Below are positions 1,340 through 56,547 of a DNA stretch of 64,000 bases, piece by piece (position 1 is the first letter of the stretch; each line of letters begins with the position of its first letter). Below the pieces are notes generated by a model that made no database searches, was not told where the DNA came from, and worked only from the letters and a program-made list of their open reading frames with translations. The position numbers were made by a program, and so were the translations under genes. This DNA is from Phycomyces nitens (lineage: Eukaryota; Mucoromycota; Mucoromycetes; Mucorales; Phycomycetaceae). The stretch spans positions 1,426,001 to 1,490,000 of the forward strand of contig JAHRBC010000006.1 of the NCBI GenBank assembly GCA_022702545.1. The letters are read 5' to 3'.

Positions 1340-2413
1340 TTAATATGGGATAGGCCCACCTTTATACTTTTGTAAAGCTAGTAGTCTATTATGCATAGAG
1401 AGGCAATATTTCTCACATACTCTCTCATCTATGTTTTTCCACTCTTCATTCAGAGCCTCTTTTAACTGTGCCAGTGTTGTAGGTTGAACTGCCCTGGAGC
1501 GCATATTGTCATCCAATCTATTCCAGATGTTCTCGATTGGACTCAAGTCAGGACTTTTTGATGGCCAGTCAAGAACATCTATTCCAAGATCATCTTTACA
1601 CTTTCTTGACATTGCAGCTTTATGTGGCGTGGCATTATCTTCTTGGAATCGATAGCCGCCAAGCTCATTGTGCCGTAGTGTGTCATAGAATGGCTTGAAC
1701 TTGTCTTGCAAGACCTTGACATATTGTCTTGCATTCATATTGCCATCCAGAAAGACAAGGGGACCAACACCTCCAGACCAGATGCACCCCCACACCATCA
1801 CCGATCCTCCATCTCCCTGGATTTTTGGATGAAGGCAGTCAGGCAGGTACTTCTCATCGGGTCTCCTCCACACATAGTCTCTTCCATTTTTTTTAAAAAG
1901 AGTGAATTGAGACTCATCACTCCAGATCACCGTCTTCCACTCTTCTTTCCAGCCCATCTTCTCTTGAGCCCATTTATGCCTTGCAGCCATGTTTGCCTGA
2001 GTCAGAAAAGGCTTTGCCAATGCAACACAGCAGTTGTAGCCAAGGCTGTGTAAAGTATTTCTTATCGTAGCCTTTGAAATGGGGACTTTGATGATGTCCT
2101 CCATGTCATTTGTAATTGAAGATAATGTTTGATGTCGATTTTCTCTAACAATCATCTCCAAATGACGTTCATCTCTGGGAGTGAGAATCTTAGGCCGGCC
2201 TGTGCGAGATTTATCTTCTACGGATCCAGTCTTGTAGTACTTGTGTACTATACGGCGTACTGTTTCTTTATTGACATTACGACGTTTCTCAATTTCAACA
2301 AATGATAATCCTGCCATGTGTAAACCGACGAGAATTCCCTTATCAGTGTTTGAGAGCTTAGTATAGATGTGATGGCGTGTCTCCTTTTCATTGCTTGATT
2401 GCGAGGTAGACAT
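1340..2413 (-). CDS. Tc1/mariner transposase
   Basis: An intact 357-residue protein of normal length for Tc1 transposases. It cuts and pastes the surrounding element. The N-terminal third is a paired-type helix-turn-helix region ending in a GRPK-type hinge (SRTGRPKILT). The DDE domain follows, with the first Asp in IWSDESQF, the second in QEDNATPHKA and the Glu in SPDLSPIENIW. There are 34 residues between the second Asp and the Glu, the DD34E spacing of Tc1. The start is the first Met of the frame and lies just inside the right TIR. No stops or frameshifts are present, unlike every other Tc1 copy in the window, so this is the youngest copy here. It has no introns. Confidence 0.95.
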   Translation of the reverse strand: MSTSQSSNEKETRHHIYTKLSNTDKGILVGLHMAGLSFVEIEKRRNVNKETVRRIVHKYYKTGSVEDKSRTGRPKILTPRDERHLEMIVRENRHQTLSSITNDMEDIIKVPISKATIRNTLHSLGYNCCVALAKPFLTQANMAARHKWAQEKMGWKEEWKTVIWSDESQFTLFKKNGRDYVWRRPDEKYLPDCLHPKIQGDGGSVMVWGCIWSGGVGPLVFLDGNMNARQYVKVLQDKFKPFYDTLRHNELGGYRFQEDNATPHKAAMSRKCKDDLGIDVLDWPSKSPDLSPIENIWNRLDDNMRSRAVQPTTLAQLKEALNEEWKNIDERVCEKYCLSMHNRLLALQKYKGGPIPY

Positions 2414-4139: not shown

Positions 4140-6156
4140 TTACAAAGAATTATTAAGGTGGGTTTGGGTAACCCAGGTTGTACGTAAATGATCGTTGTAG
4201 CATGTTTTACACATTGGTGTAGTTGGGTCGCAGCTACAAGATTTCTCTACTCTTGTACGACGAGCACCCAAAATTTGGCAGTTTTTACAACCCAACCTCA
4301 TTCTTTTTTTGCCATTCATTCCTCTCATTGACACATAAAGATGGCTGGTATCCGACCTGAGCACTCTTTGATCATCCAAGTTAGGTTCTGTGCCATGAAC
4401 CAACTCTTTGCAGTGCTTCAACAAAGTCCAAGCCAAAGTATCCTTGAAGGTGCTATGGCTTGTGCTCCCACCATTGCCAAATACGCGAAACGAGCTGAAT
4501 GCATTTGCTTCACAAATTCCCAGAAAGAACCCAAGGAAGCGCATTTCCCACCTTTCAGTAGAGATGATATCGTGGTAAGATATCATATTGTCTCTTAAAT
4601 TATTGGCTGCATCTACAGCACCTATAATAATAAACTCATTAATATGGCAGTATATATTTTTTGGAATCAATCTTTTACTCACTTTTATGAGTCTCATACT
4701 CATCTACTACTTCTGGTCGCTTGATGGCAACAAGACTGCCCCCAGAACCCAGAAAAGTTCTTTCGCTGGTAAGTCTTGTGGTACTGCACGAAGATACAAA
4801 AGCTTTCACTTTTTGATCTCGATAGGCACACACAAAGAGCTTACCGCTACTCAAGACTTTTCTTATGGTATAGTGGCTACCACGCTCTTCACCAACCGTC
4901 TCCACAATATCCGTGGTGGGCATTCCGCGGGGCCAGTAGCGACGTTTGGCCACCTGCATGATGGAGTAGAGGCCAAGATCGCTCAGCATCGTAGTCATTG
5001 CTGGTGATCCAAACCAGGAGTCAGCAATCACGGTGCGACCACTTCCGAACCAAGGCTTCACCAAACGCTTCATTGTGGCAGTCAATTTTTTCATGCCTGG
5101 TTCATCGTCAAACTCCTTCACCTTTGGGTCACTGACCGTATCCATGCGCAGAATGCAGTAGGTGTGGTGGTCAGCCAACATCTTGAATTCTTAACCGATT
5201 GGGTGTGGCTTGCGAGGAACATCCTTCAAGTTTGGCATGCCTGCACCCAACCACTGGTTCATTGATTCATCAACAACCAAATACTTGCCTGGTGTTACAC
5301 AAGTAGCCATATGATCATTAAAGGCTTCAATTGCAGACCGGATTTGATACAAAGGATCAACTTTTTGCTTCTCCACAGAGTAAACCTCGAACACATGCAT
5401 TCGCATAATATCATTGAATTGTTTGTATGACATGTACTGAGAAAAGTCAATGTTCATCATGAAATGGCTTGACCCTTGTTTCCAGTACGCTTTACGGTCA
5501 GAGTGCTTGAGTACTGTCATCACAGTCAAGAGCGCAATCCACATCAAGTACTCATTGAATGTGAGATCTGACCACAGGTTGTTGGTCAAATCCCTGGCAT
5601 TGGTGTTGATATTGGCGATTATCTGATGAAAGTAGTTCAATGGTAAGAAAAACAGAAAATAATCCAAAGGCAAGGCAGATCCTGGGTTAGCCAAGCTCAG
5701 TCTTGCATTCTGTTGTTGATAGCTATCATCACAGAGTCTGCTATCAATAGCCACTTCTCCAGGGGTCCATCCTTCCGAAAGATCTTCGCCATCCTCATCT
5801 TCCGTCTCTTCCTCTTCTTGGATTTCATCCTCTGAATCCTCCTCTGTTGCTACAAGAGCAGCAGGATCCTCTAAAGGTCCATCTCTGGTAGGAGAGCTGG
5901 TTTCAATTGGACCCAGGTATTTCAAGCAACCTTGCTTGAGTGTCAAAGTGATACCAGGTACTTCATCTAGTACGATATCATAAAGTACTGCACCATTGAC
6001 TGATGAACAGGCAATTGTCTTTCCTTTGAAGCTTAGAAGTGGGGTATTCCAGTCATACTTGTTGCACAAAAGGTCTTTGACTTCCTGGTTATTGATAAAG
6101 CGCTTATGAACTGACACAAGTACGTTAACAGCGAGATTGGAGTTGGCGAGAGGCAT
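4140..6156 (-). pseudogene. piggyBac transposase with one in-frame stop
   Basis: The minus strand encodes about 650 residues of a DDE_Tnp_1_7-type transposase, which excises and inserts the element at TTAA. An acidic N-terminal region (EDEIQEEEETEDEDGED) precedes the catalytic core. The expected three Asp residues are visible in VVDESMNQW, VIADSWFGS and AVDAANNLRD. The C-terminus has a cysteine-rich, RING-like segment (CKNC, CSC, CKTC) typical of the family. A 61-nt GT-AG intron (4622-4682, GTGAGT to TTATAG, phase 1) lies just before the third Asp; splicing it restores the frame exactly. One TAA at 5191-5193 interrupts the frame, in a context where Gln (CAA) would be natural, so a single C-to-T change may explain it. 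The rest is open. Confidence 0.9.
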
Positions 6157-32335: not shown

Positions 32336-34683
32336 TTAGTAAAATCTTTTATCATAAAATGTTCAATTTATAATCGCAGAAAAGCGCAAACTGATATGAA
32401 CAAAAGTGTAATTTTGGCATGACAGAAACGAAAATTGGTGTGATTGGCTGCTTTATGGTTAAAACCTCTGTCTTTATTGAGATAAGAATATTAAGTAGGA
32501 TATAGGATGTTGTGCAGGGTTTGAGTATATATGGAAATGGGATAATATATGTTTGATAGTTACATAATTTGGTTGTACAATAACGCAAATTGAGTCTTAT
32601 ACCAAGGCCCAAAAGGATTTTTATATACGTAAATTGGTACATGAGGCATTGTATTGTTCATTTGTCTTTTTTTTTAATAAAAATTTTGTTTGATTTGGTC
32701 GAGTGGAGGTGCAAGATATCTATTCTAAGCATACGTCTGTGGTACTTTTAATAACCTTTTATTAACGTAAACCTTAAGAAATTAAAATCAGTATACCTGT
32801 TTTGTTAAACACGGGCAAAGCCTAATACTTTAAGCGCTCACATTTGTCAAGAATAACCATCATTACTGTGGAGACGGCATGGGTATGTATATTAATATCA
32901 CCATCTTTCAAGCAAATCTCAACAAAATAGTTGCATGACAATTTTTAATCTATAGCTTATTAAACCTTGTTCTAAAATACTAATCAAACAGTACTAAATC
33001 TTAGAGTAGTTAACAACCAATAATAGTCGTCTTTGATGTTCTTTTTCATTATTATTCTTTTATAATCCAACATATATATATAAGAATACTTTGAGAACCA
33101 CTGGTTAAATTTATGCATATTTATAAAGTATACTAAGCAAAGCAATAAAGGCAGCTACAGGTCATGCTTGTTTACATCATTTACAACATTGGCCCTTTTT
33201 ATCAATAAAGACACGCACACAAGTTTACTATTTATAATCATAATAAGCACATATAGACCAAACATTATAAACCTGCCTATTCCAGCCTGCGCTTGACAAG
33301 TAGCACATGCAAATATATTTATAATAGAAATTCATATTAACACGCAATATTACTATAGTTGGATAACATTATATGCATTTCATCCCAAATTTGATATTTA
33401 CAACAAGTGATCTGGTAATATAATGATTATTTTATTATTTTTCTATTGTCTACTGCTACTTTCTTTTAAATATTCCCTGGGTAGAAAAATTGTCTAGATA
33501 GTATATATGTATAGCCATAGGTACTAGTAAAGTAGATTTGGTTAAAGGAATCTTGTAGATATTAGTAAAATGGCGTGGAGAAAAATGTCGACAAGATAGG
33601 AAAGATAGGCAAGTACAGAACAGAAATGGAAAGTAAACGTTGGAAAAAAAAACTAGTTAAACTAATGAAGCCGTCTGTTTTACTAAGATATTGGATGTTT
33701 CTTGCACTACTATTTTTAGGAAAAGTAGTAGGGTGTTCATCAAAATCGAACTTTCAGCAAACAATCCAAATGAACAAACCGAGTTTGAAAGAGTGCAGAT
33801 TTTTGAGGCCTTAGATGTGGATTAACTTGATCAACCTAGATCAATGGGAAAGAATACATTTGTTTAAGAGTCATTAATTACCAAGGTTGCAGGTAAGTCA
33901 TAAATGAGAGGTAATTATATTCCTGGAAAGAGTTTGCCAATACTCCCAAAGGAAACTAACATTCATCTTTGATAGCTTCATCATATATTTGGCAAATAGA
34001 GTTGGTGAGGCAAAGGAACATACAGTGTTGTAGTAACTATATTGGGTTTTAATCCCACATTATTTCCTGGCAGAATACAGATGTAGTTGTATATAAGCCA
34101 TATAATAGTAATATATATAACCTCTTATACTACACAATAAAAAGATTGAGAGTATTTTATACGGATGAAGCAAGTTTCGATCAAAACAATTAGAAGACCT
34201 AGATTTTTGGAATATAATATAATTGGCCAATGAGGCTTCTATACCTAGAAATTATATCTCTCGTATATTTACATAAATAATTGTATGCAAGCTGCTATTG
34301 GTAAAGTATAGTGACATCTTTAAGACGTTGAAATGGAACCGTGAATACTATAATTTATTCAAATTTCATTACAATTTTGATGTGGATGAGTTGGAAGATC
34401 TACTTTGATTCCTGTCTTTAAATTTTATATCTGGCTATTTTATATATATTGCATAGTTTTTAATACATATACATATACATATACATATATATATATATAT
34501 ATCCTGTCTATCCTTTTATAAAATAAGGCATATCATATAAATAAAGTTAAGTAAGTTAAATTTTGAAATACTGTATCTAGCATGGTTTTTGCATGGTAGT
34601 TAAAACGTATGATGCCAACAAAACAAGAGATATATTTACAAGATCAAGTATAAATAGATAAAAGCATATTTATACAAGTGTGG
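32336..34683. other. AT-rich intergenic DNA
   Basis: No gene is supported. An open frame at 33575-33814 has a short hydrophobic stretch but no homologue I recognise and no promoter of the array type. A microsatellite sits at 34464-34502. Confidence 0.45.
34464..34502. repeat. ACATAT/AT microsatellite
   Basis: (ACATAT)n passing into (AT)n. Confidence 0.85.
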
Positions 34684-34980
34684 CTAAGAGCTAGTAGAGC
34701 CATTGAGTAGACATGGTCTTTCAAGAGAGACAACTCGATAGGAGGCCCGTTTCCTTGGAGGCAGAGAGGCCTCGTTTAAAGCCGTCAAAGGCGTAGCTTC
34801 AGTGGCCTTTGGTGGCGGATTCACCCCAATCTCAGCAGGCTCGACATCATCAGAAACTTGTATAAATAAAAAAATATCAATTAAATTGCAAATACAAAAA
34901 CAACCAAATATCATGTAAAAATTACTTTGGAGGGCAGCGATTTGAGCACCAAGAACAGTAAGTAGGGCTTGAAGAGGCAT
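34684..34980 (-). CDS. Array gene 1, small basic protein of unknown family (type I)
   Basis: Exon 1 (34980-34926, 18 codons plus one base) and exon 2 (34856-34684) are joined by a 69-nt GT-AG intron of phase 1. The product is 75 residues. Residues 2-18 form a hydrophobic/amphipathic segment (LLTVLGAQIAALQ). Residues 20-45 are acidic and Pro-rich. Residues 46-63 contain the family block NEASLPPRKRASYRVVSL. The tail is Cys/Ser-rich. There is no signal peptide or membrane segment. The basic PPRKR suggests a nuclear protein, by inference only. Without splicing, frame 1 reads through into AT-rich intron sequence, but all six copies show the same splice sites. It is the most downstream copy of the array and groups with copies 3 and 6. 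Function unknown. Confidence 0.75.
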   Translation of the reverse strand: MPLQALLTVLGAQIAALQSNFYMIFGCFCICNLIDIFLFIQVSDDVEPAEIGVNPPPKATEATPLTALNEASLPPRKRASYRVVSLERPCLLNGSTSS

Positions 34981-35024
34981 CTTTTGAATCGAATAAAGTG
35001 ATCATATTTTGGCAAAGTTTTCTC

Positions 35025-35100
35025 ACATTTTTATATACATTTTTTAGCAAATTTTTATTTACTAAATAAACAAATCAATGAGCTGGAATATATTATGGTT
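35025..35100 (-). promoter_or_regulatory. Array promoter block, copy 1
   Basis: TATATAAA lies about 50-60 bases before the ATG, followed upstream by an A-run, TAAATAAA and TATTCCAGCTCAT (minus strand). The same order is found before all six array genes. Confidence 0.6.
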
Positions 35101-36770
35101 TCTCATGGCCTTTATATTGTCTAAAACATTTATTAATACAATACAATACAAGCCATTATATATTCATATTTTCCCATTATTGTAATGCATTATATGACTC
35201 ACAACACATTCAAAAAAGACGTATATATACGAATACCATACAGTAAGTTTAATCTATTCTTCACTATGCCTATTATATCCATATGTCTGCCAAAGATCTT
35301 CAAATAGTGGAAATGCTTTATTTTCTTGAAACAATAGCAGTGACGTAAAAGATAGTATTGATCCCTTTATTGATGGTACAGACATACCATTATTGCTAGA
35401 AACCAGACTAAAATTCAAATTAAGCGCAATAGATTGTATGCCATTGCATCGTATTTTATTAGAAATAATGATAATAGCCACACAAGGTATTAATTGTATC
35501 TGGAGAAATCAAAAAATTCTAATCAATAGTTAAAGCAGGCAAAAATATATATACTGAGATATGTTTAAATAGCTAGAAACTTTTGTTCTGATAGCTTTTA
35601 ATTTATTATATACAGAAAGTTTTATTAATCACTTTTTTACATTGCTACTTTCACGTATTGATACAATTCGTTCTTTTAGAGGCCTGAATATATCCTTGAT
35701 ACCCATATTTCTTATATACTGTAGAGAAATTATGTATTCTATAGAAACCTCTATATACTTTCTAAAACTTGATTACTTTGCATGATCAAAGTTCAATGGT
35801 TTAAAGAAAAGCTGATATTTAACAGGATGAAATATAAAAGTACTCTCTATTTATTTTTAAACCCACCAAAATCAATTTGTTTCAATTTTTAGACAAGATG
35901 TTTTATTGATTAAAGTTGCCAGCGAGTGCACTTATATTAGAGCTAAAGATATAATTAACGTGAAATGCAGTATTGTACTATTAAACAGTAGGTGTGTATA
36001 AAGCTATCATCTTTATTGAACATTATATTATCTGGCACACTCAAGTTTCATATGAAATGATTATCCGTGGCTATCATTTTTAAAAAAATAAATATCACGT
36101 TTCATTCATGCAAATGACATCAGAATATATGTTCCAAAACCAGAGCTATTGCAGCTTTGCAAAGACACGGATATCATTGTAAATTCAAAAGGTGTTGGTA
36201 GAGAATAATAAACATACCAAGGTTCTAGACTACACGTTAAAGAGTTTGTGAATATTGTATATAAAAAAACAGATTTTGGATCGAATGATTAAAAACACCA
36301 ATTTTTTATGCTACTATAACTAGCGAATGAGATCTTCATGCCTAGAGAATATATCTCTTGTATATATATTAGTATATAAGTTAATAAAGTTATACAGGTG
36401 AATTGCTATTAACAAAATAGCATAGTAATAATAATACCAATACAAAAACAGCACTGTAAATAATATACTCTCCTAAAACTCTATTTGAATTTTGACTTGC
36501 ATGTCTTAAGAAATATATAAATGTTTTTATATACCAAATTGCATACTAGACTGATCTATAGGCGTTGCATACTTTTGAATATGTGTGTATCCTAATATTA
36601 AATTGTTAGTTTCTATCATATCATATATGATAGAAAGTAAAGTAAGGAAGAAAATAATAAACAAATTACTAACCACTATTTTATGATAGTTAAAATGTAT
36701 GTTATCAATGAAAGCCGGTATTTATTTACAAGAGGTACAAACGGATCAAATTATATACATGCTTAATTGG

Positions 36771-37065
36771 TTACAAGCTAACCAAGTTTTTTGGGGCCGA
36801 AGGACTCTCCAAAGACACCACCCGGTATGAACCCCTTTTCTTCGGAGGGAGGGAGGCTTCGTTCACCAAGTTTGTGAACTCCACACCTGTCATTGGTGTG
36901 GGTAGATGGCTACCACTTTCGCCAGGGTTGGCATCATCAGAAACTGGGTCGAGTAAATAAACATAATTAGGTTTAAATATAATAGGAATCAAGTAACATG
37001 TAGAACTTACTTTGGAGATTGGCAATTTTATCGCCAAGAGCAGCAAGAGTGGTTTGGAGAGACAT
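36771..37065 (-). CDS. Array gene 2, small basic protein (type II)
   Basis: Exon 1 (37065-37011) and exon 2 (36943-36771) with a 67-nt phase-1 intron encode exactly 75 residues. The start ATG lies 19 bases above the longest unspliced frame and is chosen because it matches the MSLQ start of copies 3, 4 and 5. The N-terminal segment is TTLAALGDKIANLQ. The middle carries PTPMTGVE, shared only with copies 4 and 5. The family block reads NEASLPPKKRGSYRVVSLE. There is no signal peptide. PPKKR resembles a monopartite nuclear localisation signal. Function unknown. Confidence 0.75.
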
Positions 37066-37107
37066 GGTTGATTTTATAAAGTTATTATCAGCTCTTCAGG
37101 TTTATTC

Positions 37108-37175
37108 ACTCTTTTATATCTTTTTTTTAGCGGATTTTATTTATCTGATCAGTAAATGAATACATGAGCTGGCAT
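37108..37175 (-). promoter_or_regulatory. Array promoter block, copy 2
   Basis: On the minus strand the block reads GCCAGCTCAT, an AT spacer, AAATCCGCTAAAAAAAA and GATATAAAAG before the ATG. It matches the other array promoters, especially copy 5. Confidence 0.65.
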
Positions 37176-38909
37176 ATATCATGTATTCTAGTGACTTTGA
37201 TAATATCAGTCACTTTTCTCAATAGGATCCAAATCATCATCTGTTTAGATCCTTTTATTATTAAAATATATTATATGGCCAACTGGGTATTCAGCAAAGA
37301 TAGATACTCATCATATAGTATACGATCCAAATAATATTATTTATTTCACGTAGAATGTCAAATGTATTCTTCACTTCAACTGTTGCTTTTATTTATATTA
37401 ATCGAGAACATTGTAATAGAAAAAAGCTTAAATAAAAAAATATCAGTGACATACAAGATAATGACGATTTATTTATTAATAAGACAGACATGCATTTACA
37501 GTCAATGGCAGTCATTATATCAACATTTAAAGAAAAAGATTGTATATTATGACATGGGATTATAAAATGAATTATTTTAATATCCACATAGAATATACAT
37601 TATCTTTTTGTATGTCCCAAAAAATAGTTAATTCATAATCAAGAGGAGCGTATACTGAAATATATTCTAAAGGTTAAAAACGTTCATGCCGATATTTATT
37701 ACTTTAGTATAGACAATTGTCTTAACCAACATTTTTCATTTTTTAACTTTCTTTACAGTAATACAGTTTGTTCTTTTAGAGGTCAAAATATAACGTTGAT
37801 ACAGATATTTTCATGTACTTTGTAGAGAAATCATGTGCTTAATAGAAACTCTTATGTACTTTCCTTGAATCTAGTAATCTTTTATTATTCTATTTCAGTA
37901 GTTGAGAAAAGTATGGAGTTTGGAAGAATAGAGTATCAAACTACGCACTATTTCCTTTTGAAACCATTCAAAGCACTTTGTTTCAATTTTTAGATACAAA
38001 TTATTTTATTACATAAAATTAGTAAATAGGGCAGAATTACTTGCCAATTAGATATATAATTATTATGAGATAAATTATCGAGTTATTGAAAAGCTTGTAT
38101 ATATAAAAAAATTATCTTCACTTGGCATAAAATTATCTGATAGATTAATGTCTCAGGCAATTATTACCCATGGATTTATTCTATTTAAATACAAACCAAG
38201 TTTGATTCATGCAAATGGTATAATATCATATATCAAGCTCAGATTTATTTTATATTGACTATAATACGAAAGAAACTGTATATTTAAATGTATCACCAGA
38301 TAGTAATGTATATACTAAATACATGGGCCTCATGAAAAAGAGTTGGAGATTATTGTAAATGAAAGCTTCAATTTTTGATCAGATAATTAGAAGTGCTAGA
38401 TCCTTAAAATATAATATAGTCGGCCAATGTGCTTTCTATAAGTAGAAATTATCTATCACTCGTACACGTGCATAGATAATTTTATGTATGTTGTCTGACA
38501 TGGAGGAATGAAAGCAGACATGTAAATTGCTATTGTTAAATTATATTCTCTTAATGGCGATGTCGAGATGGTACTGTGAATACTATTATTCATTCAAATT
38601 CCATTAAAATTTTGCTGCAAATGGTTTGGAAGATCTACTTTGTTTGCTGATTATATAATTTTATACTAGGTTATTTTATAAATATTTTGTATTTTTCAAT
38701 ACATATATATATACATATAAATAAATAACCTCTTGTCTAGCTTTCTATAAAACAAGCCATATCATATAAATAAAGCCAAACAAGTGAGTTAGCGTTTACA
38801 ACACTATTAAACGCAGGTTTTACAAGGAATTCAAAACTTTTGATGCCAACAAAACAAGAGATATATTTACAAAATATAGTACAGATGAACAAAACAAATA
38901 TATTTGTGA

Positions 38910-39206
38910 CTAAAGTTTAGTCGAGCTGTTGAGTGATGCTGGCTTTTCAAAAGAGAGAAATCGGTATGAAGCTCGTTTTCTTGGAGGTAGACAGGCTTCG
39001 TTGAAAGAAGACAATGGTATAATGTCAGCAACCATTGGTGCTGGATCCACACCACCTTCAGCTGGCTTGGTATTGTCCGAGACTGGTGTAAATAAAAAAA
39101 TATTAGGAAAATTTGAAGAGCAAAAACAATCCAATATCACAAAACACTTACTTTGGAGTGCAGCAAGCTGAGAGTCAAGAGCAGTAAGATGGGCTTGAAG
39201 AGACAT
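38910..39206 (-). CDS. Array gene 3, small basic protein (type I)
   Basis: Exon 1 (39206-39152) and exon 2 (39082-38910) with a 69-nt phase-1 intron (GTAAGT donor, CCAG acceptor) encode 75 residues. The N-terminal segment is SLQAHLTALDSQLAALQ, with Leu/Ile spaced as in an amphipathic helix. The family block reads NEACLPPRKRASYRFLSFE. The tail LNSSTKL resembles NGSTSS of copy 1 and NDSIEF of copy 6. An in-frame ATG lies 13 codons further upstream, but the MSLQ start is preferred because it is shared and correctly spaced from the TATA box. Function unknown. Confidence 0.75.
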   Translation of the reverse strand: MSLQAHLTALDSQLAALQSKCFVILDCFCSSNFPNIFLFTPVSDNTKPAEGGVDPAPMVADIIPLSSFNEACLPPRKRASYRFLSFEKPASLNSSTKL

Positions 39207-39254
39207 TTTTAACTTGAATTGAATAAAGTCATTATCCATTTTCAAAGTTTTCTC

Positions 39255-39325
39255 GCATTTATATACCTTTTTTTAGCGGATTTTTTATTTACTTAATAAA
39301 CGACTCGATGAGCTGGAATATAATA
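39255..39325 (-). promoter_or_regulatory. Array promoter block, copy 3
   Basis: GGTATATAAATG lies 52-59 bases before the ATG, preceded by ATCCGCTAAAAAAA and further up TATTCCAGCTCAT. It is nearly identical to the block of copy 6. Confidence 0.7.
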
Positions 39326-40877
39326 TGGTTTCTTGTGATCTTTATATGGCCTCTAACATTTAGCAGTAAGATCCAAGTCAATATCTATTCATATTATTCT
39401 ATCGTCGAAATGCATCATATGGCATAAAAGACATTTAACAAAGATATACATATCTACCATATAACATTATTAGCAGAGTTTATTGCATATTTCAAGTCGT
39501 GAGTTTACTTTATTCTTTACTATGTCTATTATTTCCATCTGTCGATCAAAGATCTTCCAATAGATGAAAAGCTTAAACTAAAAAATAGCAGTGACGTAAA
39601 AATAATATTTATTTATTTATTTATTCCTACTCCAGACATACACTTATTTCCAGAAGCCAGTCTACAATTTGCATTCAGCGCAATAGATTGTATGGCATCA
39701 CATAGTATTATATTGAGAATAATGATACTAGACATATAAAGTATTGATTGTTTCTGAATAAATCCAAAATTCAAATCAATAGCCACCAAAGAGAGAATAT
39801 ATACTGAAATACGTTTAAAACGTTAGTAACTTCTGTGTTGGTATCTTTTAATTTATTATATAAAAAAAGTTCTATTAATCATTTTTTACATTGCTACTTT
39901 CACACATTGACACAATCCATCCTTTCAAAAACCTTAACATATCCTTGATACTGATATTTCCTTGTACTTTATAGAGGAATTATGTGCTTTACAGACACTT
40001 TTATTTACTTTTCTTGAATCTAGTAATCTTGCGTTATTACATTTTAGTTGTTAAAAGAAGTGTGGAGTTTGGAATAATAGAAGATTAAACTATGCATTAT
40101 TTTCTTTTTAAAACTGTTGGACGCAGTTTGTTCAATTTTTATATACAAATTATTTTATTGCATATAATTGGTAGATAGGACAGAGTTACTTGAAGATTAG
40201 ATATAGAATTATTATGAGAGGATTTATTGAAAAGCTTGTATATTTAAGAATTACATCTTCACTTAACATTAAATTATTTGATAGATTCATGTCAAATGAA
40301 CAATTATTATCCATGAATTTATTCTATTTAAATAAAAACCAAGTTTCATTCATGCAAATGACATCCTATAATATGTATTAGAGCCAAAGTTGTTTTAGCT
40401 AGTATAGCACATAGATATTTGTATATCTAGGATGTACCGCTGGATACTGATGTATATATTAAAATGTTTAGAATATATAATAAAGAGTTTGATATTAATA
40501 TAGAAGAAATATTATTCTTTTGGTAGAAGGATGAAAGCGCTAGGTCTTTAAAAATTATATAATGGGATGAGATCTCTATCCAAAAACAAATGATGCTCTC
40601 TATACAAATTATATACCAAACTGCTTAATACACACTTCTTGATCTTTTGCAAATATACATAATATTTGCTAATCCTTAGTATGTTTTAAAAGTCATGTAA
40701 CGTAAAGAAATAAAACTAGTATATCAACCTCTACAATATTTTATAACCATTGTTTTTATAATATAGTCAAAATGTATGTTGTCATTAAAAACAAACTTTA
40801 TTTCAGAAAGAAAAAATACAAATATATACAAGTATGTACATATGGTGGCGGTTAAAGGTGGCCGGGTAACTGTGCCA

Positions 40878-41146
40878 CTATGGCTTCTTCAGAGAAACGA
40901 CTCTGTACGATCGCCTTTTTTTTGGCGGCAGTGAGGCTTCGCTCAAAGAGTCTGCTGGCTCAACGCCTGTCATTGGTGTTGGCCCATGGCCGTTGCATTC
41001 TCCAGACTTGTAGGGCTCAGAGACTAAATCAAGCAAATAAGATTAATTAGATTGAAGATATCAAAAGAATCAACATTCTTTATAAACATACTTTGAAGGT
41101 TGGCGATTTTATCGCTAATAGCGGCAAGAAGGAGTTGTAGAGACAT
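40878..41146 (-). CDS. Array gene 4, small basic protein (type II, short)
   Basis: Exon 1 (41146-41092) and exon 2 (41023-40878) with a 68-nt phase-1 intron (GTATGT donor, TTTAG acceptor) encode 66 residues. The start is MSLQ. The N-terminal segment ends DKIANLQ and the middle carries PTPMTGVEP, as in copies 2 and 5. The family block is intact (SEASLPPKKRRSYRVVSL). The protein then stops after KKP, nine residues earlier than the 75-residue copies; copy 5 stops at the same point. The unspliced frame is not long enough to show as an open frame, so this gene is easily missed. Function unknown. Confidence 0.72.
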
Positions 41147-41189
41147 TTTGAATTGGATAAAGTGATGATCAAATTTTCAAGTTTATCCA

Positions 41190-41262
41190 CACTTTTATAC
41201 CTTTTTTTATTGGATTTAATTTATCTTATCAATAAATGAATGTATAAGCTGGAGTATAATAT
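41190..41262 (-). promoter_or_regulatory. Array promoter block, copy 4
   Basis: On the minus strand the block reads CTCCAGCTTAT, a spacer, ATCCAATAAAAAAAGG and TATAAAAG. It is the most diverged of the six blocks but keeps the order. Confidence 0.6.
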
Positions 41263-41599
41263 GGATTCAAGTGATCTTGATAATATGCATCCATTTGACC
41301 GATACAATCCAAGCCAAGATATTTTCAGACCCTTGAGTTATTCTAATGGGCTATAGGACAGTAGTTATCTACTACCAATATATAGACTTTTTCTGGTATA
41401 AATGAGTCTTCATTAAAGCTTCTCAAGAAAGGATACCAATACTACATTCTTACTATTATCTTTCTATACCTTTTTGCTCATATGAACCACACAATGTATC
41501 ACCACATTAGCAAGAAAGTTCATTATAAGCGAAAACAAGTCTCAGATTACTAGAAAGGTCTGATCATTAAAAGTACTCTTCATGACATCTCACAGTCTT

Positions 41600-42540
41600 G
41601 TATATCAATCAAAACTGGTATACCCAAAGCAACTGCTCAAAGGATTATACACATACATAAGACAACCACTGAATTTTTTGAAAAGCAAAAAAAAAAGTTC
41701 AAAGATTCTTAATGAGCCCAATCTATCCCATCTTAAGACTGAAATAAAAAATAACTGTAGGGCTACACTTGGAGAGCTGCCAAACACCATGAGACGTAGT
41801 AGCCAATTATATTTTAAAGAATACTATCTACTATGACATTTGTAGAAGCGTAATGTCTTTTCAATGTACTGTGTTTAAACCACGTCTATCCAAACGGCAC
41901 AAAAAGAAGTGATAAGCTTTTGCACATCACTCCAAGAAAACTAATCAAGGATGGGATTGTGTTATCTGAAATGATAAATCTAGCTTTATGCTTTTTCCAA
42001 GAATAACAACATGTGAGTATAGTACTCTTTAGTAGAAGTGTTTAGAAAAGTCTGAATTACACTAAGAAAGTAGTCTGGTAGTAGCTTTATAATGGTTTTG
42101 GCATGTGTATAGGCTGAAAGGGTTGACCTTTTGAAGACCATAATCAACACTCTTAACCAGTATGCATATATAAAGTTTTTTGGGAAGAAAACACTTCCTT
42201 TTGTGAAACGATTTAAATACACCTAGTAGGAATTATCAAGAAGACAACATTTCTTGTCACAAATCAAAACTGACTAAGGACTTGAAGAAGTACCAAAGTA
42301 TTTCAATAATAGCATTGTCATCAAATAGTCCAAATCTAGGTCATTTTGAGAACTTGTACGTTTATTTTTGGAAGATGGCAAGGACAACAGTACCAACTCC
42401 AAGAACTATTAAGGAGCTGAATTCTGCAATCTACGAATAGTAAAATAAAGTACCTGAAGTATCTGAAAATCATTGCATGTCAATGTCAAATTATCTAGAC
42501 CAAATAAAGAAGGCCGGTAGTGGATCCACAAAGTACTAAA
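41600..42540 (+). pseudogene. Tc1-like transposase, heavily decayed, inside the array
   Basis: Plus-strand fragments follow the order of a Tc1 transposase. They are LSHLKTEIKNNCRATLGEL (HTH region), CVI-NDKSSFMLF (first Asp block), QEDNISCHKSKLTK (second Asp), SSNSPNLGHFENLY (Glu block), then TPRTIKELNSAIYE and a C-terminus ending GSGSTKY. Numerous stops and frameshifts interrupt it. It lies between array genes 4 and 5 and explains why that spacing is larger than the others. Confidence 0.75.
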
Positions 42541-43267
42541 TGTGGTATACACACCACAGTTGAGTGAAATACAGACTCCACAACCGATCTCCGGTTACTA
42601 CTTGCTAATGACCCTGGCAAGTTAACATCTCAGGAGCAGTTACACACCAGGCACACATACACTTCACACTGCTACAGTGATAACCAACCATTACACGACG
42701 GGGACTTTAATTACAAGGGAATTTGAATAATAGTATATAAGCAATAATAATATTCTTTCTTCAATAAATAACACTCTCACAGTATTCTTATTTCCCTTAA
42801 AAGATACTAACAAACCATATACCTCACTAAATATTAAAAAAAAAACACTTTATCATTATTGAATGATGTATGTCTCCACTCGTTCATTATTAGCTATTAC
42901 TTGTTAAATAAAATCTGATATAATACAATGAGAGAGCTAAAATAGATAGTTTTTATTTGGTAAATATTGAATTAACTCGTTGCTAAGGGAATGAGTCTAC
43001 ATCTAAAATTTTACGTTACACTTGCATAAATATTGCAAAGCTTTCAATAAGTATACAATTTTATGGTTATTTTTTGGTCTTTCTAAGTTGTACAATAAAA
43101 AGTAAAATGAGCTTGTGAGTCTTTACAAGACTTTACTAAAAGTTGTCTTGATATGGCAGTCAAGATTTGTTATTGATGATAAGAAATTTATTTACAAAAA
43201 ATATATACAGATTGGTGCATGAGTGTACAAGTATTTACAGAAGACATTCAGCTGGGCTGTTGTATGC

Positions 43268-43536
43268 CTATGCCCTCTTCGGAGGGGTATGCCAGCATGG
43301 CACCCTTTTCTTTGGTGGCAAGGGAGCCTCGTCCAAGAAACCGAATGGCTCTACACCTGTCATTGGTGTAGGCCCCTGGTAGTAGCATTCTTCCACCTTG
43401 GTAGGATCAGAAACTGAATCAAGTGAAACGGATGAATAAGATTTAAGATAACAAAGTCATCAAATAATATAGAAAATTTACTTTGAAGGTTGGCAATCTT
43501 GTTGCTGATGATATCAAGAAGGATTTGGAGAGACAT
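43268..43536 (-). CDS. Array gene 5, small protein (type II, short, diverged)
   Basis: Exon 1 (43536-43482) and exon 2 (43413-43268) with a 68-nt phase-1 intron encode 66 residues. MSLQ, NKIANLQISD, PTPMTGVEP and LPPKKR are conserved, but SYRVVSL of the other copies is replaced by PCWHTPP. By hand alignment it is 31 of 66 identical to copy 2, although their upstream DNA is about 96 percent identical. Open frame, splice sites and promoter are all intact, so it looks like a diverged gene rather than a pseudogene. Function unknown. Confidence 0.68.
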
Positions 43537-43579
43537 TTTTGAGTGTATAGAGTGATTATTAGCTCTTTAGGTCTATTCA

Positions 43580-43650
43580 CTTTTTTATACCTTTTTTAAG
43601 CGGATTTTATTTATCCGATAAATACATGAATATATGAGCTGGCATATATC
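43580..43650 (-). promoter_or_regulatory. Array promoter block, copy 5
   Basis: GCCAGCTCAT, spacer, AAATCCGCTTAAAAAAGG and TATAAAAA on the minus strand, as in copy 2. Confidence 0.65.
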
Positions 43651-45372
43651 ATATATTCTAGTGACTTTGATAGTATCAGTCACTTTTTTCAATAGAATCC
43701 AAATCATCGTCTGCTTATATCCTTTTATTATTAAAATATATTATATTGCCAACTGGCTATTCAGTAAAGATAGATACTCATCATATAGTATACGATCCAA
43801 ATAATATTGTTTAATTCATGTAGAATGTCAAATGTCAAATGTATTCTTCACTTCAACTATTATTTTTATTTATATTAATCGAGAACATTCTAATAGGAAA
43901 AAGCTTAAATAAAAATATCAGTGACGTACAAGATAATGACGATCTATTTATTAATAAGACAGACATGCATTTACAGTCAATGGCAGTCATTATATCAACA
44001 TTGAAAGAAAAAGATTGTATATTATGACATGGGATTATAAAATAAATTATTTTAATATCCACATAGAATATACATTATCATTGTGTATATTTCAAAATAA
44101 TAACTAATGTATAATCAAGAGAAGCGTATACTGAAATATATTCTAAAGGTTAAAAACATTCGTGCCGATATTTATTACTTTAGTATAGACAATTGTCTTA
44201 ACCAACATTTTTCACTTTTTAACTTTCTTTACAGTGATACAGTTTGTTCTTTTAGAGGTCAAAATATAACGTTGATACAGATACTTTTATGTACTTTGTA
44301 GAGAAATCATGTGCTTAATAGAAACTCTTATGTACTTTCCTTGAATCTAGTAATCTTTTATTATTCTATTTCAGTAGTTGAGAAAAGTGTGGAGTTTGGA
44401 AGAATAGAGTATCAAACTACGCACTATTTCCTTTTGAAACCATTCAAAGCACTTTGTTTCAATTTTTAGATACAAATTATTTTATTACATAAAATTAGTA
44501 AATAGGGCAGAATTACTTGCCAATTAGATATATAATTATTATGAGATAAATTATCGAGTTATTGAAAAGCTTGTATATATAAAAAAATTATCTTCACTTG
44601 GCATAAAATTATCTGATAGATTAATGTCTCAGGCAATTATTACCCATGGATTTATTCTATTTAAATACAAACCAAGTTTGATTCATGCAAATGGTATAAT
44701 ATCATATATCAAGCTCAGATTTATTTTATATTGACTATAATACGAAAGAAACTATATATTTAAATGTATCACCAGATAGTAATGTATATAATAAATACAT
44801 GGGCCTCATGAAAAAGAGTTGGAGATTATTGTAAATGAAAGCTTCAATTTTTGATCAGATAATTAGAAGTGCTAGATCCTTAAAATATAATATAGTCGGC
44901 CAATGTGCTTTCTATAAGTAGAAATTATCTATCTCTCGTACACGTGCATAGATAATTTTATGTATGTTGTCTGACATGGAAGAATGAAAGCAGACATGTA
45001 AATTGCTATTGTTAAATTATATTCTCTTAATGGCGACATCGAGATGGTATTGTGAATACTATAATTCATTCAAATTTGATAACAAACTTGACGTGAATGA
45101 TTTGGAAGATATACTTTAATTCATGTCTCTAAAATTTTCTGTTAGGTTGTTTTATAAATATTGGATAGTTCTCAATACACACACGTATATATATATAAAC
45201 TCATGTCTAGATTTCTATAAAATAAGTCATCATATAAATAAAATCAAATAAGCAAGTCAACTTTTACAACACTATTAAATGTAGTTTTACAAGGAATTTA
45301 AAACGTTTGGTTATGAAAAACAAGAGATATATTTACAAAGTATAGTACAGACAAATAAATATACATTCATGA

Positions 45373-45665
45373 CTAAAACTCAATCGAGTCATTGATTGAG
45401 CATGGTCTTTTAGAAGAGACAACTCGGTAAGATGCTCGTTTTTTTGGAGGTAAGGATGCTTCTTTGAAAGAAGCCAACGGCAGAACGTCAATATCCATTG
45501 GTACTGGACCCGCACCACTTTCATCTGGCTTGGTATTATCAGTGACTGGTGAAAATAAAAAATATTAAGAAAATTGTAAGAGCAAAAATAATTAAATATT
45601 ATATAACACTTACTTTGTAGTGCAGAAAGCTGAGAGCGAAGAAGAGCAATAAGGGCTTGAGACAT
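45373..45665 (-). CDS. Array gene 6, small basic protein (type I)
   Basis: Exon 1 (45665-45614, one codon shorter than in the other copies) and exon 2 (45545-45373) with a 68-nt phase-1 intron encode 74 residues. The N-terminal segment is ALIALLRSQLSALQ. The family block reads KEASLPPKKRASYRVVS. The tail is CSINDSIEF. By hand alignment 43 of 75 positions match copy 3, its segmental counterpart. The longest unspliced frame starts 13 codons upstream and runs into the intron, so it gives a false C-terminus. Function unknown. Confidence 0.74.
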
Positions 45666-45713
45666 TTTTATCTTGAATTGAATAAAGTGATTATCCATTT
45701 TCAAAGTTTTCTC

Positions 45714-45782
45714 ACATTTATATACCTTTTTTTAGCGGATTTTTTATTTACTTAATCAACGACTCGATGAGCTGGAATATAA
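45714..45782 (-). promoter_or_regulatory. Array promoter block, copy 6
   Basis: GGTATATAAATG, ATCCGCTAAAAAAA and TATTCCAGCTCAT in the same positions as before copy 3. Confidence 0.7.
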
Positions 45783-46930
45783 TATGGTATCTTGTGACCT
45801 TTACATGGGTTCTAACATTTAGCAATACGGTTCAAGCCATCATCTATTCATATTATTATATCGTCGAAATGCATCATATGGCATAAAAGACATTTAACAA
45901 AGATATATATATCTACCATATAGCATTATTAGCATAGTTTATTGCATATTTCAAGTCGTGAGTTTACTTTATTCTTTACTATGTCTATTATTTCCATCTG
46001 TCGATCAAAGATCTTCCAATAGATGAAAAGCTTAAACTAAAAAATAGCAGTGACGTAAAAATAATATTTATTTATTTATTTATTCATACTCCAGACATAC
46101 ACTTATTTCCAGAAGCCAGTCTACAATTTGCATTCAGCGCAATAGATTGTATGGCATCACATAGTATTATATTGAGAATAATGATACTAGACATATAAAG
46201 TATTGATTGTTTCTGAATAAATCCAAAATTCAAATCAATAGCCACCAAAGAGAAAATATATACTGAAATACGTTTAAAACGTTAGTAACTTTTGTGTTGG
46301 TATCTTTTAATTTATTATATAAAAAAGTTCTATTAATCATTTTTTACATTGCTACTTTCACACATTGACACAATACATCCTTTCAAAAACCTTAACATAT
46401 CTTTGATACTAATATTTCCTTGTACTTTATAGAGGAGTTGTGTGATTTACAGACACTTTTATTTACTTTTCTTGAATCTAGTAATCTTGCGTTATTACAT
46501 TTCAGTTTTTAAAAGAAGTGTGGAGTTTGGAATAATAGAATATTAAACTATGCATTATTTTCTTTTTAAAACTGTCGGAAGCAGTTTGTTTCAATTTTTA
46601 TATACAAATTATTTTATTGCATAAAATTGGTAGATAGGACAGAGTTACTTGAAGATTAGATACAGAATTATTATGAGAGGATTTATTGAGTTATTGAAAA
46701 GCTTGTATCTTTAAGAATTACATCTTCACTTAACATTAAATTATCTGATAGATTCATGTCTCATAGAAAATTATTATCCATGAATTTATTTTGTGTAAAT
46801 AAAAAACAAAGTTTCATTCATGCAAATGTCACCATATTATATATCATCACTAAAGCTATCAGAGTTTTGTTATTGCACATAGACAATTTTATGCCCAAAT
46901 ATATCACCAGATAGTAATGTATACACCAAA

Positions 46931-48171
46931 TATGTAGACCTCATGAGAAAGATATTGAGATTCTTGTAAATGGAGGATGAAGTTTTTGGATCAGACAATT
47001 AAAAGTGTCAGATTGTTGGAATATAATATAGTTTCCAAATAAAGTCTCTATGATGTGTTGTATGATTATAATTACAGAATTTTTTGTAATTTTTGTATAT
47101 AGGCGCTCTAGCTTTACCTTGAAGATTTATGCTCACACATATATTCATTTGAACACTCCAAGATTATATTTTGCTAATAGATGTACTTGCATAAAGGCTG
47201 AATTTCTTATAATGTTCAAGACGTTTTATGGGTTTAATGAGATTATGTTGTTGACCTTACAGCTGTATTATTGAATAGGGTTCTTTAAAGAAAATTACTT
47301 GATTCATAAATATGTATCTATTCCCTACAACTTTATTCATATACTTTAAAGAGGATCAATAGTAAACGCTATATATTCTTGTAGTAGAATATATATAACT
47401 GTCTGCTATTGTACCAATTTCCTAGTCTCAATTATTTGAATCAACAAAGATTTATATTTATGGAATATAACACTTGTCAAGCGTGTCATACTTGGGATTT
47501 GAGTAAAACTAACAGACTATACATAGGTACCAAGTATAAATTTTGTTTATCCAAGTTTTGTGCTCTAATTTATTTGTGTCTTGGCTTGCATATTATTGAT
47601 ATCTATCTTTTTGATTTTTTTTAAACTATACAATAAGAAAGTTTTTGTAATATTCATCTATTCAACAAAAAGTAAAATAGTGTAAAGATTGAAGAGTACA
47701 CTTACACAAGCGTAGATTATCAACATTTAGTCTCAAAGTAATAAATTATAAAGAACAGAACTATGATTATTACTAACCAAGGGATAATAATTATATTACT
47801 AAATAAAATAAACCCATTATTATTTTAATATATTTAATCATATATAAAAAATATCTATTAATCACAATAAAAGACCTTGAAACACAAGCGACACTATATA
47901 CTTGATAGAACCTGATTAATATATTATTCGTATGAATGCTACCTATGAGCTATAACATATTTTTAAAGCAACTGTTTTGGGATTACAATTCTCTAGAGCA
48001 TTTATACATATCCTTAAAGTTAGCCAGTCTTTCTGTCAGAACTGTAGTGAGAAAATGCTTGGATATTAAATGGTAAGAATTATTTTATTAAGATATTGAG
48101 AGTAATTTACAAAAGGAGGAATACACATAGGAGGGGTTAAATATTAGTTTGACTTGAGATAGAAGGCCGTC
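46931..48171. other. AT-rich intergenic DNA beyond the array
   Basis: No seventh array copy was found. Short frames at 47050-47274 and 47409-47624 lack any family signature. Confidence 0.5.
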
Positions 48172-50048
48172 TTACAAGGGAGATTTCTCTTCATAGGATC
48201 GATCCTCCTTGGACTTTTCAATACCAGCCCTGCTGACTTCTTCACGAATGCGTTCAATTTCTTCGCGGTGAGCAGAAAGATATTCTTCGTAGTTGAGGTT
48301 GGTGACAATCAAAGGACCCTTGAAGATGACCTCCATTTCTTCGAGGGAGAGACCCTTGGGCTCGGGAGCAAAGAGAATGACCCAAACAAGCATCATAATA
48401 CCAATTGCACCGTAGATCAAGTAGGTACCCCACGTAATACTGTCCATAAGAACGGGTGTTACTTGACCGACAACAATGTTTCCGATCCAGAGTACAGAAG
48501 AGGCCAAAGCAAAACCCTTTGAACGGATACGAAGAGGGAAAATCTCGGCAATGTAGATCCAGGCAACAGGGGCCCAGGTAGTAGCGTAAAAGGCAACAAA
48601 GATAAAGATAAATGCAATAACAGCGTTCTGGGCACTTGGATTCTCAGACATGTTGACAACATGGCTCATACTGGCCTCGTCCCACTCTTTAAATCCACAG
48701 CCACCATAAAGACCAGCAATGATAAAGAAGCAGACACACATTCCGGTAGATCCCCAAATCATTAGTTTTACACGACCAACTCTGTCGACAAGGAGCATGC
48801 CAGGAATACAAAAGACAACCATGACAATATCTAATCAATGAGAAGATGAGTTTACTGGCTTACACAGAAAACAATAAAGCAAGGGACTTACAATTGATAC
48901 CGTTTGCCATCAAAGACATGGATCCCTTAAGACCAGCTTGTTGGAACATGAAGGCGGCATAGTACATGATAACGTTTGCACCAGTGAGTTGCTGGAAAAT
49001 AGCAATGGAGCATCCGACCCAGAGTACACGATGGTTTCGAGAATCCTTGAAAAGATCCATATAGCTTCCGACAGAGATGTTGCTTTCGAGAATGACGGAA
49101 TCCTTGATTTCTTTGAATTCTTGCTGGACATAGGGATGGCTTTGGTCGCCCTTTCCGTGAACCCGGGCCAGAACTACCATGGCTTCATCGTATCTTCCTT
49201 TCTCAACCAACCAGCGTGGAGAACGAGGCAAGATAAAAGGACAGAATGCGAGCACAATAGCTGGAAGGATCTGAACCATGTAGGGAATACGCCACGACCA
49301 GTCACTGTCGATGTACATGGTACCAAAATCAAGCCATCCAGAGACCAAAAGACCAATGTCAACCATGAGCTGCTGGAAACCAACAAGACGGCCACGGATT
49401 TCTTTGGGTGCCAATTCAGCATTGTACATAGGGGCTATGTAGATGGGTAAGTATGGGGGGTTTGATTGAGCAGATATACTCTTATTCCAAAATATACTTA
49501 CACAATACAGAGCAAGCACCAACAGAAAGACCAGAAACAAAACGACCGATCAATTGCATTTCAATGTTCTGGGAGGCAGTCTGGAGGACACCACCGACGA
49601 TAAAGATCAAAGAGGCACCAGCAATCGTATCACGACGGCCAAATCGGTCAGAGAGAATACCCACAATCAAACATCCAAAGACAGCACCACAACCCATAAG
49701 CGAGTTCAAGGCACCCTGAAAATGATTGGGATTAGTAAAGGGCCACAGGCGCATATAATGTGCTATGCTTCTGACAGGTTACCTTGATTGCGGGGGTCAA
49801 TTCGTAAAAGTATGCTTGGAAGTGAGGCATAGCCATCACACCACTTGTTACACCAAAATCATAACCAAACAGAAATCCACCAAGGGCTGCAAATGCAGTG
49901 ATGCTATCATGGTTAAGAATCAACAAGTGTCAGAATAATGATTTATCAAAGATCAATACAGTTTAGCTTACACATATAGAATGAAGCCAGCTTCAGATTT
50001 GATGTTTGGATCTCCTTTTCCACCCGAGACTGGTATGATTGGAGACAT
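48172..50048 (-). CDS. MFS sugar transporter (sugar porter family)
   Basis: Five exons (50048-49972, 49903-49783, 49715-49502, 49434-48892, 48830-48172) encode 537 residues, the normal length for fungal hexose/sugar proton symporters of the plasma membrane. Introns are 61-68 nt GT-AG. Motifs in order are FAALGGFLFGYDFGVTSG in TM1, DRFGRRDTI between TM2 and TM3, PKEIRGRLVGFQQL, PRSPRWLVEKGR at the end of TM6, QQLTGANVIMYYA in TM7, VDRVGRVKLM between TM8 and TM9, and PEPKGLSLEE at the C-terminus, where Pro replaces the usual Thr of PETKG. The cytoplasmic tail is charged. The exact sugar cannot be told. There are no neighbouring catabolic genes. Confidence 0.93.
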
Positions 50049-54943: not shown

Positions 54944-56547
54944 ATGGCACTTTCCAAAGAAAATGCGCTCGTTCGAGACATTCTGTCGAAAATGCTCGTA
55001 AATCTTGTGGACAAATGCGGTGATCAATTATTGGTGGATGTGGAATTACCAATGTTCAAGATTGCATTTGGTGATCAAAATGTGCTCACCAACAAAAATA
55101 ACAATTTATTCTTCAATGTAAATGAGAATAGGGATAAACTTTCCTCAATAGAGCATTATATTAAAGCACATTTGATTAATGGTAGCATCCCGCATTTATT
55201 GGAAGGAATGTATTGAACTTGGCAGTAAGAAAGTTCATTTCAACAGAGTATTACTGGGTAGACCAGGAGAAGATGGAAGAAATGGCTACACTGATATATT
55301 CAAGCGATAAAATATACGAGTTGATTGAAAAGAGATTCGGGCTAGATAAGCACTGCCTTGGTGCCGATCCACACAAAGAAGCCATGTTAATAATCGATGG
55401 ATTTGTTGGCATACTATACGAACTTCATGACTATTCCGCAGTCGAGCAATGGATTACACCTCTCTTGAAAATATTCTGTCCAGTGTTATTTATAAAGCTC
55501 CCAAAACTGCTATACAACCAGCTGTTCGGATTAGTAAAGGAAGATGATGATCAATCGTCCGACTATAAGCCTGGAAAGAACTTTTTGAACTATGTTGTAC
55601 GTGGAAAAGGAGAGATCAGGGCCAAGGACGTTGAGGTTGTGTTTCCAGCTCCTTTTTCTGGATGGACCGTAGACGTTATGTACAAGCTATCACCCACAGC
55701 AGAATGGTATGTACATAGTCGCCATGGTCCCAGTAAAAGGAAAGCACGTGAACTGGCCGTGATAGATATTCGGTCATATTACAGCAGAAATCCAGAGGCT
55801 ATTCACATTCATCACTTGTCATGTCCTAATTCCAATGAAAACAATCCAAAAATATTACCTATACCATCCGAAGACTATTATGACAGAGAAACCTCTCTTA
55901 GGTCTCTCATAATTGTAAAGCCTTTGAGCCAGAAAGAAGAGGTTCTGGTCTGTGCTGGATACCAAAGAAAAATAATATTTTTGGAAGCAAACGATGATGA
56001 TGAGACCATGATGGCTGCACTGCTAGGTGACTTTGGGATGCAAGATCTTGCAGAAGAGAAGATTGTCAACAAGCCACTAAAGAATCCCTCTTCCAATATC
56101 GACAAAAAACCCAATGCTTCTCTCGACCTTGTCTCTCCAAAAGCATCGCCTTGTCCTACCAACCCAACTAAGTCCAAATGCACAGCCAAGCCTTCTTCCT
56201 CCACCAAAAGCATTACCCATGATCTATCTACTTCTAGTCTAAATATCCAATCCGATATTCTCAATATCAAAGCAGCGATTGATCAAATACCCAAGTTAAA
56301 GAGCTTTTTAAACGATCCTTCTGGACAAAAGAGACCAAAGGATTATATTGAGAGGATCAAGATTTTGCTAGGTGCTGAGATAACTGTAAGATTTGAGATG
56401 TCGGGGCCACATCATTCACTTGTATTCAAAGCTACATGCGTACTTTGCCTCAATGATCTCAAAGTTACCACAAAGGCAGAGTCGACAAAGAAGAGCGATG
56501 CCGAGATGCAAGCATACAGTAGCTTGATTGAACTATTGAAAGAATAA
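54944..56547 (+). CDS. R3B2-like RNase III protein with two dsRBDs
   Basis: Two exons (54944-55117 and 55186-56547) joined by a 68-nt GT-AG intron encode 511 residues. Splicing puts HPAFIGRNVLNLAVRKF together, which aligns with the RNase III signature LEFLGDAVLNLAV. An RNase III fold continues to about residue 160. A dsRBD-like segment follows (VFPAPFSGWTVDVMYKLSPT to SKRKARELAVIDIRSYY). After a Ser/Pro linker there is a clear C-terminal dsRBD (VRFEMSGPHHSLVFKATCV to STKKSDAEMQAYSSLIELL). This architecture matches R3B2, the Mucorales enzyme of the Dicer-independent non-canonical RNAi degradation pathway. Catalytic positions are altered: Glu to Ala and Asp to Arg in the signature, and Asp to Leu and Glu to Asp in the second acidic motif (KEAMLIIDGFVG). 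Reported R3B2 proteins likewise have an unusual active site that cuts single-stranded RNA. Confidence 0.8.

Follow-up and report, generated by a model that had tools for sequence, protein, structure and literature searches.

A tandem array of six two-exon mini-genes in Phycomyces nitens, a probable orphan family with a constrained basic block

The taxonomically restricted (orphan) genes of fungi (PMC7660931) are short and fast-evolving and lack detected homologues outside their lineage. Predicted genes that appear to share these properties, with no homologue outside the species among the annotated proteins searched, form an array in a stretch of 64,000 nucleotides (nt) of Phycomyces nitens (contig JAHRBC010000006.1, positions 1,426,001 to 1,490,000 of the forward strand), hereafter the window, in whose coordinates all positions are given. 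In contrast to fungal orphan genes generally, they form a tandem family of six, in which an intron is shared and one block is under strong constraint.

A further likeness concerns the block itself. In the pKID region of the transcription factor CREB, a basic stretch is likewise followed by x-S-Y-R and hydrophobic residues, and the serine is a site of protein kinase A (PKA). The likeness covers about six residues, and the array proteins have neither a bZIP domain nor a Pfam match; it is a lead, not a relationship.

Judging from their sequences, the six genes are very probably real orphan genes under selection, and the best reading of the family is that of a young or fast-evolving orphan.

Gene structure and codon-level constraint

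Enumeration of splice sites and direct reading of the sequence confirmed six minus-strand two-exon gene models between positions 34684 and 45665, where the sequence-only reading had placed them (Table 1). As that reading had also proposed, exon 1 comprises 17-18 codons with LQ as the last full codons, the introns are 67-69 nt long and in phase 1, and the products have 66-75 residues. Exon 1 has the common form MSLQ...LQ and a length of 55 nt, except in copy 6, where it is 52 nt. The introns (69, 67, 69, 68, 68 and 68 nt in copies 1-6) are all of the GT...AG type and have a GC content of 0.17-0.28, against 0.43-0.51 in the exons. The copies fall into an A type (1, 3 and 6) and a B type (2, 4 and 5); they diverge to about 40% identity at the lowest, and their coding sequences (CDS) are 50-78% identical. 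Searches for open reading frames (ORFs) had been said to miss or wrongly terminate copies 2-6, which is the case, but copy 1 is also affected, since its 69-nt intron is open and yields a false ORF of 98 amino acids (aa); the unspliced frame of copy 3 has 111 aa. Spliced mini-genes of this kind are misread by plain ORF calling.

The coding signal was measured with a BLOSUM-based score, taken as the observed value minus that expected for an equal number of changes. The best windows of genes 1-6 scored 243.8, 231.3, 177.5, 234.0, 185.0 and 212.2, whereas the highest of the 20,780 overlapping windows that covered the remainder of the units, on both strands and in all frames, reached 146.0; the same scan detected no further coding signal at gene level elsewhere in the repeat units. 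The ratio of nonsynonymous to synonymous change (dN/dS, Nei-Gojobori) lay between 0.21 and 0.49 for every pair of copies except 3 and 6 (14 of 15), for which it was 0.88, these individual values being rough, as many pairs are nearly saturated with synonymous change; pooled across all pairs it was 0.37. Over the six copies, the proportion of synonymous differences (pS) exceeded that of nonsynonymous differences (pN), with none of 400 codon-column bootstraps at or below zero. When the products were divided into segments, dN/dS for the five copies other than copy 5 was 0.68 in the predicted helix, 0.56 in the linker, 0.07 in the block and 0.48 in the tail (0.54, 0.53, 0.11 and 0.45 with all six copies). 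The pattern of change in the exons is that of coding sequence, with the constraint concentrated in an 18-codon block.

In neutral simulations with assumed rates and indel sizes, the fraction of runs in which a single copy retained its start codon, its splice sites and its reading frame was 3.7% at 22% divergence, 1.0% at 30% and 0.2% at 40% when indels were disallowed, and lower still when they were allowed. It had been argued that conservation of splice sites, lengths and the basic block across the copies speaks for selection. Purifying selection is borne out by the codon-level tests, and it is these that carry the claim; the splice sites and lengths say little, since they were in part inherited when units were duplicated as wholes.

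The block, (N)EASLPP[KR]KRxSYRVVSL, was found in five of the six copies. Its core, LPP[RK]KRxSYR[VF][VL]S, had been ascribed to every copy, and this holds for copies 1-4 and 6; copy 5 departs after LPPKKR and continues as VPCWHTPPKRA, its DNA past KKR being 46% identical to copy 2 and 53% to copy 4 in a 60-column window. Having lost the block, copy 5 has probably begun to decay or taken on another role. Throughout the genome (48.98 Mb, 11 contigs), a degenerate DNA pattern for PP[KR]KRxSYR, from which some Arg and Ser codons were omitted, matched five places, namely the five block-bearing copies (control, 0), and the four matches of a second degenerate pattern all lay in the array.

Table 1. 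Genes and repeat features of the array (window coordinates)
Feature	Position	Strand	Exon 1	Intron	Exon 2	Product (aa)	Identifiers	Remarks
Copy 1 (A)	34684..34980	-	34926-34980	34857-34925	34684-34856	75	P0004, CLU79DRAFT_840892	
Copy 2 (B)	36771..37065	-	37011-37065	36944-37010	36771-36943	75	P0001, CLU79DRAFT_840891	
Copy 3 (A)	38910..39206	-	39152-39206	39083-39151	38910-39082	75	P0003, CLU79DRAFT_840890	
Copy 4 (B)	40878..41146	-	41092-41146	41024-41091	40878-41023	66	P0002, CLU79DRAFT_840889	
Copy 5 (B)	43268..43536	-	43482-43536	43414-43481	43268-43413	66		SYRVVS part absent; no public match found
Copy 6 (A)	45373..45665	-	45614-45665	45546-45613	45373-45545	74	P0005, CLU79DRAFT_840887	
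Repeat unit of copy 1	34139..36132	-						About 70% in end-to-end alignments with the units of copy 3 (38335-40376) and copy 6 (44811-46842)
Two-unit block, copies 2 and 3	36833..40374	-						Identity to the block of copies 5 and 6 (43303-46842), 90%
Core promoter of copy 3	39207..39326	-						TATA-like run and ATCCGCTAAAAAAAGGTATA; similar stretch before the other five ATGs

Repeat units, flanks and surroundings

The units of approx. 2.1 kb, one gene each, were duplicated whole and stand head-to-tail; where A and B units adjoin, they align at 69-70%. Searched against the genome at the protein level (to E 10), copies 2, 6 and 1 gave 7, 6 and 6 matches, respectively, and the upstream DNA of copy 2 gave five, all within the array. 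With head-to-tail copies in homologous units and every protein match of the genome inside the array, this is a tandemly duplicated gene family. About 104 nt at 46948-47051 are 73% identical to positions 34139-34242, downstream of copy 1, and are perhaps the trace of a further unit that was lost.

The array is interrupted between copies 4 and 5 by a dispersed repeat of approx. 1.14 kb (41401-42541), with three copies elsewhere at 74-75% identity, and immediately after it by a 286-nt repeat with at least 40 further near-identical copies (the pair spans 41401-42827). By eye only, the longer repeat resembles the remnant of a Tc1-type transposon. Because of this insert, the DNA upstream of copy 4 cannot be aligned with that of the other copies, and for the upstream side we dropped the comparison of promoter and gene conservation with the surroundings of copy 4 as evidence of constraint. 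No Rfam family matched at gathering scores over positions 33500-48000, and thus no described RNA family was found in the intergenic DNA.

In the alignment, all six copies have a TATA-like run and CAGCT[CT]AT at most about 140 nt upstream of the ATG. When up to two mismatches were allowed, ATCCGCTAAAAAAAGGTATA occurred four times in the whole genome, upstream of copies 3, 4, 5 and 6, and pointed to no co-regulated gene outside the array. The 120 nt before the ATG were the least divergent part in three of five pair groupings (A-A, 0.13; A-B, 0.30; A-B with copy 4, 0.26), but not in copies 2/5 (0.15 versus 0.04-0.07 further upstream), nor in 2/4 and 4/5 (0.25 versus 0.21 in exon 1). Copies 3 and 6 possess in-frame upstream ATGs (39206-39239 and 45665-45698, minus strand), just behind the TATA-like run, which would add MDN[DH]FIQFK[LI]K to the product.

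In two sister pairs, divergent genes have near-identical DNA upstream. Between the two-unit blocks (copies 2-3 and 5-6, one duplicated from the other in either direction), sequence identity of the intergenic DNA is 95.8% and 97.9%. For copies 3 and 6, identity is 96.7% in the promoter, 82.7% in exon 1, 85.3% in the intron, 76.3% in exon 2 and 83.4% in the 3′ flank, and it recovers on either side of the gene. The DNA 300-1000 nt upstream differs by 2% (copies 3/6) and 4% (copies 2/5), against 24% and 41% in exon 2; however, copies 2 and 5 also differ by 51% in the DNA 120-600 nt downstream, which places this gene at the edge of a recent tract rather than on an island. The plain explanation is recent duplication or gene conversion, with tracts ending short of the genes, and a higher mutation rate in the GC-richer DNA would also do for the divergent exons. 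Positive selection on the exons of copies 3 and 6 is not claimed (differences in the CDS versus the intron and 3′ flank, Fisher p = 0.075).

It is unlikely, in our judgement, that the array is a repertoire in which selection keeps the copies different and recombination evens out the intervening DNA. The near-identical flanks, the nearly fixed block, the free linker and the ratio of 0.88 for copies 3 and 6 would nevertheless fit mini-proteins with a common docking motif and different partners, as in recognition systems.

Elsewhere in the window, a 357-aa frame at 1340-2413 (minus strand) carries Tc3-type HTH and DDE_3 transposase domains (Pfam) and possibly represents an intact Tc1/mariner-type element, and a 321-aa frame at 5191-6156 (minus strand) carries a DDE_Tnp_1_7 domain, which we take to be the transposase domain of piggyBac-like elements. 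The frame at 48172-48822 (minus strand) has a Sugar_tr domain and appears, by eye, to be part of a multi-exon sugar transporter gene extending to about 50050. A 444-aa frame at 55213-56547 (plus strand) has no Pfam match and relatives found only in Phycomyces, namely a P. nitens protein (99%) and three P. blakesleeanus proteins (53-56% identity); one relative is named 'RNase III domain-cont...'.

Relatives and alternative explanations

The products of copies 1, 2, 3, 4 and 6 match, over their full length and at 100% identity, hypothetical proteins of P. nitens (NCBI/NR; Table 1), whose sequences are the same as those spliced here and whose gene models, the work of others, speak in favour of the family; the product of copy 5 was not among the public protein matches found. 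These entries give no family, no function and no remark that they belong to one family. The family had been described as unrecognised, which is true of its function, since searches of Pfam and NCBIfam (E ≤ 1) matched no family for any of the six members, but not of its annotation, five of the six products being public already. A sequence search of the PDB to E 10 returned a single match, a 17-residue helix (9tls_A, E 6.8), and no usable relative. The literature search found no work on these genes, and the locus-tag prefix CLU79DRAFT appeared in no paper of the library searched.

The search proposed earlier, for homologues in related species with a profile of the six proteins, was run on annotated proteins: among 5.8 billion proteins (E ≤ 10, 597 candidates) it recovered only the five P. 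nitens proteins named above, and none outside this species. As a positive control, the neighbouring frame at 55213-56547 found its three P. blakesleeanus relatives in the same database. The identity of these relatives, only 53-56%, weakens the negative result for the family, as a 75-aa protein that distant may share no 5-residue word. It is thus quite possible, if short of likely, that the family is a fast-evolving one with members in P. blakesleeanus and further Mucorales, and was missed there because its proteins are tiny, quickly diverging and poorly annotated. The low identity reached within the array itself is consistent with this, and detection failure is, according to PMC7660931, enough to explain many lineage-specific fungal genes; on the other hand, the block is strongly conserved among the copies, and the profile still recovered nothing beyond P. 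nitens. Pattern searches gave 16 matches in viral contigs and 48 in bacterial and archaeal genomes; no relative was confirmed in either collection, and a viral or bacterial source has no support.

We consider it improbable that the genes are longer or differently spliced, i.e. that (i) exon 2 is not terminal, (ii) translation of copies 3 and 6 begins 12 codons further upstream, or (iii) copies 1 and 3 keep their open 69-nt intron in the transcript. The long unspliced frames of copies 1 and 3 and the upstream ATGs of copies 3 and 6 would allow for such models, but the 67- and 68-nt introns of copies 2, 4, 5 and 6 break the frame, the five public models are all two-exon, the units hold no further gene-level coding signal, and the upstream ATGs lie so close behind the TATA-like run that they may not be transcribed. 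The least probable account is a decaying or neutral tandem repeat whose shared frames are functionless leftovers of recent duplication: the duplication of whole units, the lost block of copy 5 and the non-significant constraint on copies 3 and 6 would suit it, but not the intact frames and splice sites of all six copies, set against the few percent or less per copy in the simulations, the gene scores above those of all non-gene windows, or the very low dN/dS of the block.

Predicted products, possible function and significance

The AlphaFold2 model, based on an alignment of the five public proteins, has one helix (residues 3-15) as its only secondary structure, which suggests that the mini-proteins are mostly disordered with one short helix. 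A mechanism may be outlined, though we put it forward tentatively and would not call it likely. Exon 1 would form a short amphipathic helix, through which the protein may associate with itself or with a partner; the linker would be disordered and free to vary; and the 18-codon block, to which its constraint points, would do the work as a short linear motif. Nuclear-import signals are typically basic, and basophilic kinases such as PKA recognize a serine preceded by basic residues. The [KR]KRxS core would suit either or both, and the kinase consensus [KR][KR]xS fits the sequence in five of the six copies. The proteins could then act as small adaptors switched by phosphorylation.

Taken as a whole, the observations are best explained by a family restricted to the Phycomyces nitens lineage, which arose by tandem duplication of approx. 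2.1-kb units and encodes motif-bearing mini-proteins; our confidence in this explanation in its entirety is evenly balanced. Several points weigh against it. The sister pair of copies 3 and 6, with its high dN/dS, shows no significant synonymous excess (bootstrap range of pS-pN, -0.10 to 0.17). Exon 2 diverges more than the intron between copies (0.29 versus 0.22 for A-A pairs; 0.49 versus 0.41 for A-B pairs), unlike the usual look of strongly constrained exons. The structural model is weak (mean predicted local distance difference test score, 63.1; predicted template modelling score, 0.22; alignment of five sequences), and the kinase site, the import signal and the partner binding are all putative.

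The array is a new family of an ordinary kind, its members being mostly annotated already as hypothetical proteins. If the pattern of flanks and genes reflects selection, it would be a small natural repertoire; otherwise it is a young gene family of the ordinary sort. With six diverged copies to compare, a single genome offers an internal test of selection that lone orphan genes do not, and this test picks out the 18-codon block, whose function is thereby open to direct testing in a fungus that has a close sister species to compare it with.

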